64,000 nt of DNA from Ectocarpus siliculosus (Eukaryota > Sar > Phaeophyceae > Ectocarpales > Ectocarpaceae), in contig FN649729.1 in the NCBI GenBank assembly GCA_000310025.1, positions 1,676,283 to 1,740,282 on the forward strand, read 5' to 3'. Under the pieces are notes generated by a model. The model saw nothing but the letters and a program-made list of their open reading frames with translations, did not search any database and was not told where the DNA came from. Below, in pieces: positions 41,500-63,985 of this stretch. The position numbers and the translations under genes are program-made. Every line of letters begins with the position of its first letter. The first letter of the stretch is position 1.

Positions 41500-44400
41500 T
41501 TACTGTCGTGCGGGGTCCGCGACAAGATCTTTGACCAATCGAAGGTCCTCCGGCGGCGCGAGGGCCAAGAAGTCGTCGAGGCTGGCCGCGAGAGCGCGAC
41601 CGGAATCTCGCACGTCGTCGACGTCCTCTTGCGATACCTTCACCCCATCCTCCTGCTGCTGCAGAGCAAACGACATCACTTCGTCCAAAGCCTGCCACAC
41701 GAAGAATATCGTCACGGTCGTGGATGGGAGAAGAATCTTAAATGTGAGCGCGATATCACCAACGGAGAGTCTCTGTACCCCGTTTGCTCACGGAACGACC
41801 GCATGACAGGCGCGGCCTACCTCTGCTCTCGCCGCGTTGCTTCGTGGACGCGATTCCCTGGGTCTCCGCCATCTTCACTCCGACAGCAAAATTCTGAAGT
41901 TTTAGCTTCAGTCTCATCGTTCGATATCCGTGGGTGGAAGGTTCATTCGCATCCCGCACCCCTTGCCCGACCCGGTCTCAAATGCTTATCTCGAGCTACA
42001 GTGCAAATCTCGTGGCACCCCAAGTATGGTTCGGTAGGGAATCCCAAAACATGACCCCTCTCCGAGTTTCAGCAGCTTCCACCTCCTGTGGCCGACACGA
42101 CCCGGCCTTGACTGTTCCTGTCCGTTTCGCCATGGGAACGGCCGGTTGAACAGCGAAAGAGGGTCCTGCGTGCTGCGCGCCACAATTTTTGTTTTTTTTA
42201 TGATTTTCTTCCTGAGTGACCATGCGGCTGTTGCAGAGTCTGCTTCAGAAAAGGTTGTAAGGTGATGGTCTCTGTCGCTTTGGGCTGCACGCGTTGCTCG
42301 CGTAGGCGTTGCTCGCGTAGTTGGCGATGCGCGTCTCTTACTTTTTTCCCTGTTGTGTCGTTGTCCATGAAGAGAAGCAGCAGCACACCAGTCGAGACAG
42401 AAATCAACAGGTGCTCCGCCTTAGGTTTATTTATATTTTGCTGCATATGCATGGGTGGCATGCATCGAATAATCGTGTTGCTGCCTTTTGAGCCTGCTGC
42501 GTAGTTAGTCGTAACTTGAGCGATAAGGCAGATGACAGCGCAATCTTATGTACGAAAGTGAGGTATGGCAACGAACAGTCTGCTCCTTCGTCCAGCGGTA
42601 CACATCTTCGCGGACGGACTTCATACTGTAGTTCGTCCGTGTAGTCATGTTCTTTGTTGTTCTCACTTCGTCACAGGAATAAAGAACGTCCGCACTACTC
42701 TAGTCTATTTGGTTGTTGTGTTTGTTGTTGCTGAGCCCGCGTCGGATACCGCCGTTCGTTACACATGTCTGACAACCTGCGGTGGGCCAAAGGGACGAGA
42801 GTGAGTGAGTGTCTTCTCGAGAGTGAATGCGTTGTCTTATCTCCGCTCTCTTATGTTAGTCTACCTTTCTCTCTCGCCTTTCGCCGGTGGGGTCCCAACA
42901 ACTCGAACTACGTCAACCGCAGTGGCTTCGCTTCTTGCTGAGTAAGAGGCTACCCGTGCACCTGGCTGCTGCATGTGAGGCGATGTGCGCTACCTGTTCA
43001 TGTCAAGCAATGGACTTGGGCCCTACCTAGTGCTGGCCATGCAGTGCTCTGTGACATTTTCCAGCGGCCCAGAGCGAGCGACGACCACGGTGGATTTTCT
43101 ATGCTTTCTTTTCCCTCCTCCCTCAAGCCTGTCGCGCCTGGCTCACTTGTCTTTTTTCTTTTTTCATGCTTTGCTTTTTGGGGTCCCCCAGCCACCCGCC
43201 CACCTATCATTTCAGTATTAATTTTTGTTGGGAGGGGTGTTAAGCTTGTACCATGCCCACCGACACGTCCAAGGCTTGGGGGAATCATGGTAGACAAGCA
43301 CGAGCATTCCCCCAGGGAGCAACCGAAGCTTACCCCGGAAGAAGCCGCAAAGAAGGTCTGCTTGAAGTGCAAATCCACGGAGTTCGGGCCGGAAACTTTG
43401 TTCCCTGGAGAAAAGTGAGTGTACTGTAGTTTCCGTGTTCCTTGTTTCCGTGTTGGCAATGCTGGCGGCGCGTTGGCAACGCTGGTCATCGTCACGACAG
43501 CAGCGTACAGGAGCGCCTTCCTTCGCAACGCTACCAACCTTTCTTCCTGCGGTGGTTGCTTTATTTGCTAGCCTGTGACCGTTTCTGGTCTCTCGTCACT
43601 TGACAGTCACATGATGATCCTGTGGCTCTTGATTGATTGTCCGCGGCGAGTAAGAGTTTGGCAGCGCTCGTCCTTTTGCTTCTTCCCGGCCTTGTCACAT
43701 CATTTTCTAGTGTGCACCAGGTCGAACCGTACGCACCATACGTTGGACTTGCGTGGTTTTGTGGCTCGCGGCCTCGTCGCAGCCACAGGGTTTTCACGTC
43801 ATGTTGGCTCTCGCTTGTCCCCAACCCTCGTCTTTTTCTGCGTGCCGCTTGATTGTCCGCAGCAGGCAATAAGTTCGCAGCGCTCTCCTCTTTTGCAGTT
43901 CAATCTTCTTTGTGGCTCACGATGCCAACATGAACCCTTCTTGCTTGTTGTGCGTCGACAGGTGCCTCGCGTGTGACGTGCACGTGTCATTAAGTATGGA
44001 GGAGCCGGACGAGCCCGACAAGAGCACGATGGGTTCTTTCTTTTGCTNNNNNNNNNNNNNNNNNNNNNNNNNNNNNNNNNNNNNNNNNNNNNNNNNNTCT
44101 TACCAGTAGGGTCCATCATGCGGTGGTATTGGACGCTGTACCCGATGGTCATGCGGCAAAAGAAGCAATTGAAAGAACCCTTCCTGCTCTCGTCCGGCTC
44201 CTCCATGCTAAGGGACACGTGCACGTCACACGCGAGGCACCTGTCGACGCACAACAAGCAAGAAGGGTTCATGTTGGCATCGTGAGCCACAAAGAAGATT
44301 GAACTGCAAAAGAGGAGAGCGCTGCGAACTTATTGCCTGCTGCGGACAATCAAGCGGCACGCAGAAAAAGACGAGGGTTGGGGACAAGCGAGAGCCAACA

Positions 44401-47400
44401 TGACGTGAAAACCCTGTGGCTGCGACGAGGCCGCGAGCCACAAAACCACGCTCTCGACAAAATGACTAGCAATCACGTGTCATCTTTGGCGGACGCTGAC
44501 GCCGAACCTCCGGCATCGTCAACCACACAATCACGGACGCGCGACGCTGCGCTTCTTGCGCCGTACCTCATGCAAATAAGAAATGCTGCGCTCGCCGGGT
44601 TATCGGACAGCGCCCGCCTTGAACGCTCCGCCAAGCGTGATGCCACAAACGAAGCCGTCGCCAAGACAGACGTCGGAGCCAGCGCAGCATCGCCACATCC
44701 CGTTGCCTTCAGCATCGCACAGGAATTTGGCCTCAACCGAAAGCAGCGGCTAGCGTTTTACATCTCCTGGCTCAGCACAGCCCTGACCGTCCTGAAGCAC
44801 TTCGGCTTTACATCGGTGGCGGAGCCGGGACAGGAAAGTCGCACGTGCTCAAGGCCATGAAAACTTTCATCCACTGTCCGGCTATTGCCGGTCAAATCCC
44901 ACCAGGCCGTCTAAAAACCGTTGCATTTCAAGGGGAAATGGCCTCGGCTGTGGGAGGGCAAACTGCACACTCCACTTACTCCAGCGACGGAGCAAGTGAC
45001 GGAAGTTTATCGGGCGACCACGATGATCGAACTTCGCTTAACGAGAGCAACGCACTAGAGTGAAAGAACGTCACCACCCTGGCTATCGAAGAGGTCAGCA
45101 TGATCGGCTGCAAACGTTTAGTTAGTCTTCACGAGGCCGGATGCTCCATGTTCCCACTTCACAAGGGGAAGCCTTTCGGCAACCGTGTTGTCGTCATGCT
45201 CGGCGACTTCAACCAACTGAGGTGAGGGGTATGTATATGTGTGGCACATAACAATACTTGAAACGTTATACTTTTTCTTAATACTGGCGCTAACTGTATA
45301 TTCGCCCTTAAACTTTTACACGCTCCTCTTTTGCCATGGCTGTACGTTGATGTCTAGTCCTGTCAAAGCCAAATCCTTGGCTTGTGGAGCTGGTATAACG
45401 CGGCAAACCGGAGGGACATGAACGTGACTGAGCGGTTCGGCGCGGACTTATTCCGCAGTGCCAACGCGAGCGTTATTGTGGACGAAGACAACAACCGTTT
45501 CAGCCCCACCTACGCGCCGATCATGGAGCGGAAGCTTCTAGGTGAAGACGACGCCGACGACGTTGGGCTACTAAATAGCCGACTGCTAACCGGGTCTCCT
45601 GGCCTACGCGCCGACAGCTGCTTCCACGGCCTTGTCATCGCCTTCCGAGACCAGGGTACGTGTTCTTCGGGAAAATATTAACATTTCAGCGCACTTACAG
45701 AGTTAAATCGCTATTTCAACCTACTTTTTACTCCGACCCCCACCCTGTTCAGTTGAACACAATCCTGACGGTTCCAATGATACGACGCACCTCGTGCAAG
45801 GCGAACGGAAACCCGCTCTTCCTTGCAGCGGCGTCCGACGTCTACATCACTCATCTCAGGCCCGGCTTTCCGAAACAGGTAAAGAGCATCTTCGTTGACA
45901 GACTTGGACCTAGCCAATGGCATCTCGTCTACTGTACTAAAAAGCCATCCCCAATATATATATTCCGCCACAGAAAATCCCTCCCGGCACGACGTCGCCG
46001 GCTGGGCTTCGGGACGAAATCAACTCCACCGACGACGCCTCCGCCAACGATCTGCCAACAGTGGCATGCCTTGCGGTTGGTGCGCCGGTAGTTGTTCACA
46101 TGAGTCCGCAGTTCGTCCTACTGGGGGTGTGCAACAACTCTGACGGTGTCATCCACAGCATAAAGCTCGACCAACGTGAAGACTATCTCGTCCATAGCAC
46201 CCCGGGTTACTGCGTCGTCAACCTTCGATACCCACGGTCAGAGTTCTTGTCTGCATCAAGTCTGCGGATGAGGCTGGTTTGCAGCTGGATGGGATGCCGC
46301 GCGGGGTGGTCGCCTTTGCCCCGGTGGAGAAACCGTTCACGGTGGTCGGCATCGGCAAGAGAAAGTTTACTATCCGCCGACGGCAGCTGCCGCTAACTGC
46401 CGGGTATCTGTCGTCTGTGTATCGCAGCCAGGGACAAATTATGCACACCATCATCCTCGACATTAGGAACCCGCCAAGAAACAGGATGGACCCCGCCGCC
46501 GTTTACGTCGCTCTATCTCGCGCCACGTGTCTTGAAGACATACATCTGCTTTTCCCGGTAACCTTGGAGGACCTCAACAAACCACGAAACAAGGACGTCG
46601 TGGCCCTCATCGAATACCTGGAACGCCTCGACAAAGCTACCCTTTCAGCGTTCCTCCAAGATCCAACACGGTTCGCGCCGGTCTCAGCCTCACTGGCTGC
46701 TCGTGCCGACGTCGGGCCGCGGGCGCTGACCAAGAAACAACGGAGGAAAGGCGCCAACCGCCATGGGCATGGTGCCACTCGAAGGACGGCACACTTGCTG
46801 CCGAACAGCGACAACAACTGCTTCCTCAACTCTTCTCTTGCTTTGGCGCTTGCGGCATGGGATGCTCAACAGCTGCCAGACACATCCGCGTTAACTCTAG
46901 CCGGCGCGGCGTTCATCGCATCGGTTCAACTTCTTCGGGACTCCATATTCAACGGCTGTGCATTGCCTCAAGATATCTTGGTACGCCATCGTAGTTTAGA
47001 CTACTTATAGTAGGGTGTCCTCAACTTTACGTCGACCGCAACTCAATGTTTCCCCCACGTTTTTCGTTTCACACCAGGTTGTAGCACAGCAAGCACGTCA
47101 CGCAATCTTCACCAATTCGGGAGTGCCTGGCCTTGGTTCTGAAACGGGTGCGGTGGCAAGCGTGTACGAGGCCATCGCGAAACGTTGCCCTCAAGCAGCG
47201 TTTTCGCTAGGGCCGCAGGCCCTAGGCGCGGCAACTGGTGGTTGCTCGCGGCACTTGAGCCCCCCGCAGGGGCCCCCCGGGAGGGCGCCCCCCGCGCAGG
47301 GGCCAAATTTTTGGACGAAATTCGACATACTTCTTGCAAAAAATCGTTCAAAAACTGCATAAAAGTGTCAATTTTTGTGTTTTTCACCCGTTTTGCGACA

Positions 47401-50400
47401 GAGTATATCTCATTTCCCAGTGAAAAAGAGAGACCTGGAGAAAAAAAAAAAAAATCTCGCCTTAAGACCCATGTCTATGGTTTCAAAATGTTGGAAATAA
47501 ATCTCCAAATGTTGTCAAAGATTTGCGCGCGAATATCTGCTAAAGGAACATTTGAGTACCGTTTTTATGCGCAAAAATATCTTATCGTGTGGTTTTCTCG
47601 GAATGCAGCAGAAGTGCGGCGGGAATCGTGGTCTACTGCTACCAAACGATTTGATACAGACAAACCACAAAAGCGTCATGGAAACTGAATGTAACGAGCT
47701 CGCAAAGATTTCCCCACAACCCTTGATGCACTGAGCTGATGCTGTGCCCGCCAATATGTGGCGATAGCGCTCCGGGTGTGCGAGAAAAAATGTTCTCGGA
47801 GTCAAAAAGAGACCAAAACGTGCGTCAGCGCTTCCCAACGGCAAAAAGTCGGCCGCTTGAGGATACGTGAGTACAAACCTATCCAGCTCTCGCCCGTTAG
47901 ACGATCGATTCACGTTTTTTCTTCTTGGGTGTCTTCTCCATCAACGACTCTCACCCGGTTGCGCGTGGGTTGGCAGTGGCCGTGCTCAGTCGGCAGGGAG
48001 GCACATCGTTGTGCGTGCAAAGTTGTGGACACAACGCTTTTTTCGTTTTTTTTTTTCACTTGAATAGAGAGGACTTGTTCCTCCGTCCCAAAAAAGACTT
48101 TTTCAACACGTCGAGTTCACAGCGACGCGCCTCCCTGCCTGTTAAGTACGTCCACTGCTGAACCACGCACACCCGGATGAGAGCCATTGATGGAGAAGAC
48201 ACCCAAGAAGACAAAACATGAATCGATGGTCTAGAGGACGAGAGCTGGATAGTTTTGTACTCACCTCTCCTCTCAAGCAGCCGACTTTTTGCCGTTCGGA
48301 GACACAAACCACGTTTTCTCCGTGCCCTCCAAACCCCCCCGTCTGTTTTTTGTGCACGCTTGACGAGCTCCCGCCATGTATCAGCCGGCAAAACATTGAC
48401 ACGGTGACTCTAGGGTTGTCCGGATCCCTCTATGAGCTTGCTACGTTGAGTGTGCGCTGCGCAGTGGTTAGTGTTTAGGACGGAAGGGGCGGTCGGCTAC
48501 TAATCTCGCCGCTCTTGGAAAAGATTTTCGCGACCTGCCCCATTTCAAAATGTTTGTCAAACATTTTGTCAAACGAGCGACTTTTGCCCCATTTGAAAAT
48601 GTTTGGGAACATTTTGCCGAAGATTTTCTCCCATAAAAAGTGAAACAAAATCTTTATTCACAAACCTTTGAAAATTTCGACATTTTCGCGCGAAGATTTG
48701 GCAACCATAAACATGGGTCTAAAAAGGGTGCAGAAACATTTTTCGCGCCTGCGGCGAGAAAATGCCGCGCCAATATTTTTCGCCTGCGGCGAAAAAAAGC
48801 GCGACGGATTTTTTGAGGCGCGGAATGCCGCGCCCGCGGCCCGGGGCGCGCGTTTCCATGTTTAAAAGAAAATAATGCGGGGCCACGCCAGCGCGCGCCA
48901 TTAAGAGAATGCTGCTCTGAAGTCTGGCCTGCCAACGCCAACGTCCAGCACCACCTCGTACTTCACACGCCTAGGGTATTTGGGCTTGACTGGAGATACT
49001 CCAACGATTGCACTATTGCCAACCACAGCAACCTGCACATCACGGCCGACCAGTCAGCTAGGTTAAGGAACGCCACCGTCATCACGGTGCCGAATGGTCA
49101 CTCCGACTCGTTCCAAGAGAAGATTGCAGAATTCTTCAACTCCGGAGAAGGTTCTGATCTTGCGATCCCCGCACAATCACCGTGCCCGTACTGCGCAGAG
49201 ACCATCGCCTTTCATACGCAAGTGGACGTTGCTTCCTTAGACTGGAGATACGGCACCGGACAGTTTATTTTTCAGGTGTTCGCAAGTCTTCCTGGGCCGT
49301 GATGACCTGGCCATGTCGCCCTCATTGACTGTAACTTTGGGGCGGAATTCTCCCTTGTTGGAGTTTCTTATCATCTTCCTCTTGGCGGCGGCTCCCGCAA
49401 CCACTTCGCCACTCAAATGCGTTCGAGGGGTCGGTGGCACAAATACGACTGCCTACAAGGCGGCCTTACAACCTCTTCTGACGACTTCGACCCTACCTGG
49501 CACGAGTCACACCCCTACATGCTGGTCTACCTGCGGACTTCGATGTGCATCGCTACACCGCCGGCCTATGATGAAGCCCATCAGGACGACCAACTCGTAC
49601 GAACAACGCTACACCGGGTGACATGGCTACCGGAAGCCCTTCCGGTCGGACAATGCCAAGCGACCACCATAGTTCTGCACCTGTCAGCCCGTCGGGGAGA
49701 GCTGCATGATATCCACTACCTGTACTTTCTAGGTGCTTTGTTTCGTTTTTCTGCTCAGTCGTTTCAGCGTGAGTGCTCTTCTGCAACTTGTCTAGGATAG
49801 GTGTGCTATGTCAATCTTTAGTTAGTAGTAGTGTGCCAATCGAACGTGTCCATGTCGTACGAGACTGTAACAATCTTCCTGTAAGCTGATCGGGCGTCTT
49901 CATGTCTACACACCTTGGGTTGTTACCCCATGCTTGGTTACCCCAAGCTTGCTTACCCGCTGAAAAATTCGAAAGCTTTTGACAGGCAACGTGACGGTAC
50001 TCGTCGAGTTGCTATCACAATGCGCCCCAACATTCAGCCGCGAAATAACGAACACAAGCAGCTCACTGCTCATACAAGCCAAATCGCCTGGCCTTCATCT
50101 CCTCTGGACACGTTGCTTCGTGGACGTGATTCCCTGAGCCTATACCATTTCACTCCTACAATGATTGCGCCCAACATTCAGCCACGAAAGGAATTGCTCG
50201 CTCGCACTGGCCAAACCGACTTCACCTTGATGCTCGCCAGGCCTTGATTTCGATAGAGGTCCCCCAATATGTGTTTCTCCCAGTTGGAATCGCTGTAGCG
50301 ATCCAAGATCTTGGCAAAGTCCGGATTTGACAGCGGCGGAGACCTTAGAAGGGATCTCGCTTCCTCCCAACCGCTTGGTTCCTCCAAGAGATCAAGCACC

Positions 50401-63174: not shown

Positions 63175-63985
63175 TTAGCTTCAGTCTCATCGTCCGATAT
63201 CCGTGGGTGGGTGGGTGGAAGTTTCATTCGCATCCCCCACCCCTGGCCCGACCCGGTCTCAAATGCTGATCTCGGGCTACAGTGCAAATCTCGAGGCGCC
63301 TAAAGTATGGTTCGGTAAGGAATCGCAAACCATGACCCCTCCCCGAGTTTGAGCAGAGCCTGCACCTCCTGTGGCCGACACTACTCGGCCTTGACTGTTC
63401 CTTGTCTGCTTCGCCAAAGGAACGGACGGTTGAACAAGGAAAGAAGGTCCCGCGTGCTGCGCGTCACAACTTTTTTTTTTTTTTCGGTTGTGATTTTCTT
63501 CCTGAGTAACCGTTGTACACATGTGGTTGCTGCTGTGATGCTCGGAATATGCTGCAAAGGTCGTACGGTTATCGTCTCTGTCGCTTTGGGCTGCACGCTG
63601 TGCTCGCGTAGGGGATGCGCATCCCTTAATTTTTCTCTGTGTCGATATTCATGAAGAAAAGCAACGGCAGCACGGTTGAAGATACAGCCAACAACAGACG
63701 CTCCGCCTTTTTTTTTTTTTTTCTTGCTGCATATGTATCGGTGGGAAAGCATGTAAGCGGGTTGCTGCCTTACCTTGAGTCTCCTGCGTAGTCGTAATTT
63801 GAGCGATAAGGTAGATGGCAGCACAATCGTATTTGCGTAGTAAGGTTTGACAACTGGTCGTTCGTGTAGCGGTGCGCATCTATCGCGACGGCAAGCGCAT
63901 TGAGATACTAGTTCGTCCGTGGTGCTTCTAGTCATCATCATGTTGTTTCTTGTTGTCACTTGATATCACAATAAATGAAAGAAAG
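63175..63985 (+). repeat. ~0.8-kb dispersed repeat R, copy 2
   Basis: Same orientation as 41902-42690. It keeps the start TTAGCTTCAGTCTCATCG, the conserved central blocks and an AATAAA close to the end (63970). Poly-T tracts near 63472 and 63709 are copy-specific. Confidence 0.8.

Follow-up and report, generated by a model that had tools for sequence, protein, structure and literature searches.

A decayed Helitron2-type transposon in Ectocarpus siliculosus and the USP-like peptidase that its relatives appear to fuse to a Rep-helicase protein

Why would a DNA helicase of a brown alga run directly into a ubiquitin peptidase? The question is raised by a stretch of 64,000 nucleotides of Ectocarpus siliculosus (assembly GCA_000310025.1, contig FN649729.1, positions 1,676,283 to 1,740,282), hereafter the window, to which all strands and positions refer unless a contig (C) or a numbered stretch (L) is named. 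An earlier note on this DNA had described, at 44462-49800, a Pif1-type helicase continuing into a ubiquitin-specific peptidase (USP), and had considered that it might belong to an unnamed class of mobile elements or be a lineage-specific host gene. We estimate at about 80% the probability that it is part of a rolling-circle transposon of the Helitron2 type, present here as a decayed copy, whose relatives encode a Rep-helicase protein with a fused USP-like peptidase. The analysis establishes where the element begins and ends, the order of the domains, their presence in many copies and the selection acting on the peptidase, while we infer from sequence that Rep to peptidase would be made as one spliced protein.

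The motifs on which the description was based were all confirmed by reading the window sequence. On the plus strand, the helicase exon or exons with motifs I to III (44462-45222) contain GGGAGTGKS (44815-44841), IEEVSM (45085-45102) and GDFNQL (45202-45219), and are followed by an exon between motifs III and V (45358-45654) and by another with motifs V and VI (45971-46779), in which SSVYRSQGQ (46411-46437) and YVALSRA (46504-46524) are found. The same exon and frame continue into a USP-like segment (46780-46980) with the Cys box DNNCFLNSS (46810-46836), so that, as the earlier note had claimed, helicase and Cys box lie in a single open frame, here of 270 amino acids. Past an intron, still on the plus strand, there are a peptidase exon truncated by an insertion (47078-47218), a segment (48916-49215) ending at a CPYC pair (49183-49194), and a segment (49342-49563) with a USP-type His box, made up of FSLVGVSYH (49348-49374) and NHFATQ (49399-49416), and the following Asp in RWHKYD (49432-49449). 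The zinc pair that had been proposed is present as one CxxC pair, and a full two-pair finger was not seen.

This copy of the gene is decayed. The reading frame changes near 44764, at 46231-46237 and twice between approximately 49215 and 49342; stops occur at 45061-45063 and, as a TAG in the frame that copy C83 keeps open, within 49229-49249; and an insertion of approximately 1.7 kb with a fold-back structure (arms 47859-48013 and 48118-48272, 83%) lies inside the peptidase at about 47200-48915, its borders being approximate. When the raw window pieces were compared with Pfam, the Pif1 assignment was recovered only below the cut-off (PIF1, E 6.5e-4; UvrD_C_2, 0.016) and no match to UCH was obtained, a result that the earlier note had itself named as speaking against its peptidase. 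As a consequence, the evidence for a USP comes from relatives and from the comparison of profiles, and better copies were sought in the same genome.

The genome searched comprises 189 Mb in 492 contigs, and 13 matches were obtained in it for the exon that contains the Cys box and motifs V and VI. Helicase and Cys box are both found at six loci (the window, C5, C207, C63, C491 and C15, of which C5 and C207 could represent a single locus, since 2,244 bases at these contig ends are identical), and in all six they form one open frame. The other matches are a second piece at C491, C83, where the match is confined to the peptidase side, and five confined to the helicase. In C207, Pfam finds DUF6570 (E 4.4e-19) and Helitron_like_N (PF14214, 2.3e-23) upstream of the helicase (PIF1, 2.3e-12), and the same order is repeated in C63 at 95-97% amino acid identity (Helitron_like_N, 6.2e-20). 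The divergent C15 also has Helitron_like_N (2.4e-9), with identities of 45-48% in Rep, 40% in the helicase and 27% in the peptidase. The helicase profile matches a solved PIF1 (E 4.4e-4). Consequently, the less damaged relatives appear to share the order DUF6570, Helitron_like_N Rep (an HUH nuclease), linking region, Pif1-type helicase and in-frame USP-like cysteine peptidase.

Pieces of the peptidase are present on 16 contigs and Helitron_like_N has 53 matches in the genome. Among the five helicase-only matches, one was examined (C64): its frame of 1108 amino acids contains Helitron_like_N (1e-34) and PIF1 (9.8e-55), no UCH was found in it at E<=1, and tblastn found no peptidase in its 7.9-kb stretch. 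It is a Helitron of the usual kind, present in the same genome and showing no peptidase. C25 is identical to C24 over 2,104 bases and to C5 over 1,305 (L027, L028, L009), which suggests a recent spread. In C2 (L034 1573-2868), two divergent peptidase pieces stand head to head, one on each strand. In searches limited to collections of viral contigs and genome contigs, no relative was confirmed.

In the window itself, neither Rep nor DUF6570 nor the linking region was detected (tblastn, E<=0.01). Just upstream of the helicase, an inverted repeat (43751-44451, with arms 43751-44046 and 44156-44451, 94%) flanks a gap of 50 N at 44048-44097; the repeat may be either real or a fault of assembly. Because no Rep was found and the gap lies in this place, the Rep of the window copy has likely been lost or disrupted, the assembly being incomplete there.

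What, then, are the limits of the unit? The helicase-peptidase gene makes up the coding half of a Helitron2-type element, now decayed, of 8,130 bp on the plus strand (41892-50021, the ends being uncertain by about one T), recognized by its terminal hairpins, its empty site and its repeated 5′ end. The 5′ terminus TTCTGAAGTTTTAGCTTCAGTCTC (41892-41915, plus strand) forms a hairpin with a fold z score of -5.12, as good in none of 200 shuffles, and the 3′ terminus (49970-50021, plus strand) consists of a partner repeat of the 5′ end and then a hairpin (z -2.49, 5 of 200 shuffles as good), the weakest of those folded. Family A copies share the 5′ end TTCCCAAGCTCTAGCTTGGG and end likewise in the partner repeat and a hairpin; the window copy begins with TTCTGAAGTTTTAGCTTCAG at 41892 and ends at 50021, and its letters differ from those of family A while the plan is the same. 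Paired 5′ hairpins and 3′ repeat and hairpin thus occur in two families with different sequence and the same structure, and in C53 both hairpins fold better than any of 200 shuffles (z -5.99 at the 5′ end, -5.49 at the 3′ end). The Helitron2 subgroup is assigned by this terminal structure, that is, asymmetric terminal repeats and hairpins at both ends, in agreement with its definition in PMC3627910, where the 5′ hairpin derives from the 5′ repeat and the 3′ repeat stands just before the 3′ hairpin.

Insertion sites give the same limits. The joined flanks of the window element match, through the junction, an adjoining paralogous empty site on the plus strand (50090-50189; E 4e-19), with 82 of 103 positions identical (80%). 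For C53, the joined flanks find 40 uninterrupted sites among the matches listed, and the three read base by base have a single T where the join had TT, which indicates that there is no target duplication. Insertion was consequently precise and without target duplication both in C53 and in the window element (there, with an empty site at 80% identity). The 5′-terminus pattern has 198 matches in the genome with at most two mismatches (control, 0), and 38 of the 39 other genomic matches scored for the 3′ region, from 163 candidates, end at 50020-50023. Additionally, a shortened, non-autonomous copy inside C207 (L016 4395-5777) has both ends of the window element without its coding part and shares with it the region 42040-43189 (plus strand); with a strict pattern, the 5′ hairpin of this copy was not found. 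The regions 42040-43189 and 49953-50022 had been considered as long terminal repeats, a possibility rejected because, as the shortened copy indicates, they are the two ends of one element. In the same stretch, a family B element is nested within a family A element (L016 2127-6410), and a further copy of the 5′ region lies close to the window's right end (63310-63926).

Given the Rep domain of the relatives, the termini and the empty sites, the gene belongs neither to an unnamed class of transposons nor to the host. The earlier note was right that the unit is mobile, as the hairpins, the empty site and the 198 matches indicate, and its comparison with protease-bearing transposons was apt. The idea of an unnamed class gives way to the Helitron_like_N Rep and Helitron2-type termini, and that of a lineage-specific host gene to peptidase pieces on 16 contigs and the many sites with the 5′ terminus. 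Its interval, 44462-49800, covers the coding half, the whole element being longer.

The element may also contain a second gene. Copies of both families contain a short, Cys-rich reading frame (PKLTPEEAA..CxxC, CFFC..IGY), which is perhaps such a gene; nothing in it scored above the Pfam cut-off. In the window it occupies 43286-43415 (plus strand; the start of the frame, PKLTPEEAA..CLKC, a similar piece being present in family A copies) and 43802-44329, and elsewhere L012 8544-9014 and L030 2743-3108 and 5792-6280.

To which class does the peptidase belong? Across the alignment, the residues follow the order Cys box, one CPxC, YSLVGVSYH, NHF and GRWHKYD. The spliced domain of C5 matches UCH with E 0.0054, its 16.8 bits being below the Pfam gathering cut-off of 23.9. 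When a profile of 12 of the 13 alignment rows (one C63 row was left out, as its second half is off frame) was compared by hhalign with five host USP stretches, the His-box region scored 32.9 (E 4.6e-4), over only 57 columns around the His box and with a probability of 32.8%; the reversed control scored 12.5, and none of 200 column shuffles reached the real score (mean 12.1, best 20.6). For the C5 family, a shift of frame on the way from CPFC to the His box was considered, and was rejected as C83 and C15 conserve that frame. Judged by these residues and profiles, the likeness to USPs has good support around the His box, is plausible at the Cys box and is putative for the fold, and assignment to the USP class overall is good but unproven.

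Selection on the peptidase was estimated as the ratio of nonsynonymous to synonymous substitution rates (dN/dS) in 12 comparisons. Between families A and B, the ratio is 0.08 for the Cys exon, 0.10, 0.13 and 0.13 for three other peptidase pieces and 0.12 for the helicase, values that are rough because dS (2.3-3.2) is saturated. Within family A, C5 and C63 give 0.10 for the Cys exon and 0.51 for the helicase, and C207 and C63 give 0.33 for Rep. C5 compared with shortened copies gives 0.21 (C16) and 0.26 (C53), and the window compared with C83 gives 0.22 and 0.21. By these ratios, the peptidase is as constrained as the helicase between families, and was maintained while they diverged.

Several observations weigh against a Helitron with a functional fused USP, among them the UCH score under the cut-off, the short extent and low probability of the profile match, the saturated dS and the high helicase ratio within family A. 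Only 2 of 13 peptidase pieces match UCH at E<=1 (best 0.055), neither phmmer nor profile searches found a peptidase match in PDB, and two AlphaFold models are of low confidence (mean pLDDT 36.1 and 34.0). Moreover, a single CxxC pair is seen, and C15 (L015 3111-3644) has NPF where others have NHF, that is, it has lost the catalytic His. As to architecture, the full order from Rep to peptidase in C207/C5 depends on joining two contig ends by their identical overlap, and the peptidase of C63 is interrupted. Eight of eight other loci with peptidase pieces (C83, C461, C25, C24, C16, C53, C122 and C2) lack the helicase in the fetched stretch; they also lack the Cys box, which identifies them as shortened copies instead of separate peptidase genes.

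Alternatively, the domain might be papain-like without being a USP, as an OTU-like or self-processing protease that cuts a Rep-helicase polyprotein and not ubiquitin. Its Cys box (DNNCFxNS), which we take by eye to be OTU-like as well, and the low UCH score would fit such an enzyme. The self-cleavage suggested for Helentron OTU proteases (PMC4067079) points the same way. However, the residues follow the USP order, with Cys, CxxC, His and, about 10 residues on, Asp with a preceding W, and no OTU model was listed in the Pfam scans of window pieces and relatives. VTD enzymes, for their part, have Asp-x-His (PMC9741609), a motif that the present peptidase lacks, as its His box is NHF or NHY with the Asp after it in RWHKYD. 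We thus regard another class as unlikely.

A recent passenger, that is, a fragment of a host USP captured by a Helitron and without part in transposition, seems still less probable. Gene capture is a known habit of Helitrons (PMC4289320) and this genome does contain USP genes of the host (48 UCH matches), but the peptidase is found in families that differ by 37-73% in this domain, where it occupies the same position and shares the helicase frame, its dN/dS between families is low, and it is not close to any host USP. A host or domesticated helicase-deubiquitinase gene lying near repeats by chance would explain the multi-exon structure and the strong constraint between families; against it, the gene is exactly bracketed by Helitron termini and empty sites, is present many times over, with three copies identical along 1.3-2.1 kb, and is broken in the window, so that this explanation is very hard to sustain. 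A Helitron2-type element with a fused USP-like peptidase accounts best for the locus.

With Helitron2 (HLE2) elements this one shares the terminal plan, the T at the 5′ end, the absence of target duplication and a RepHel protein (PMC3627910), and it adds a C-terminal USP-like domain to proteins that are described as RepHel alone (PMC4067079). Helentrons are likewise rolling-circle elements, in which RepHel carries, or lies next to, a ubiquitin peptidase; OTU and VTD domains on Helitrons or Helentrons are already published, and zebrafish VTDs have been shown to be active (PMC9741609, PMC4067079). However, those peptidases are of the OTU or VTD class, while the present one has the USP order, and Helentrons have a C-terminal apurinic/apyrimidinic endonuclease, for which the 750-amino-acid frame of C5 gave no Pfam match at E<=1. 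The likeness to USP (Peptidase C19, Pfam UCH PF00443) lies in the Cys box, the His box with GxWxxxD and the catalytic residue order; the score below the cut-off, the single CxxC pair and the fusion to a transposon helicase set it apart. A C19 precedent exists in a Trichomonas protein that joins transposase_11 to Peptidase C19, and Ginger1 carries OTU or Ulp1; these also join a transposase to a ubiquitin or SUMO peptidase, but are DDE-type cut-and-paste transposases and not rolling-circle RepHel proteins (PMC2836005). In searches of the open-licence literature, no USP/C19 domain on a Helitron was found among the papers listed, and the available part of a study of Ectocarpus transposons reports 13 Helitron families with no mention of a peptidase (PMC12477816).

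In Helitrons, Rep and the Pif1 helicase carry out rolling-circle transposition. In the present element, Rep would nick and join single-stranded ends and the helicase would unwind the strand. We infer that the peptidase would be active and what it would act on: its most likely role, by analogy, would be to trim ubiquitin either off the transposase or off proteins located at the nick. In the first case the transposase could escape the proteasome, a protection proposed for VTD Helitrons (PMC9741609); in the second, repair and chromatin proteins at that site would lose their ubiquitin, a link to repair having also been proposed (PMC2836005). The two targets have about even odds.

If a USP-type peptidase is attached to a Helitron2 RepHel and selection has kept it there in divergent families, this would add an independent example, one beyond the Helentron branch. 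It is possible, if somewhat doubtful, that Helitrons have taken up deubiquitinases of three or more unrelated classes (OTU, VTD and USP/C19), each tied to RepHel. If so, eukaryotic rolling-circle transposition would generally require the removal of ubiquitin, and its occurrence in animal Helentrons would be no accident, in line with the suggestion that Helitrons benefit from some deubiquitination that various enzyme classes can provide (PMC9741609). As Helitrons with (C207/C5) and without (C64) the peptidase are present in one genome, they may be compared, and the question of whether a Helitron shields itself or the repair machinery from ubiquitin would become testable.

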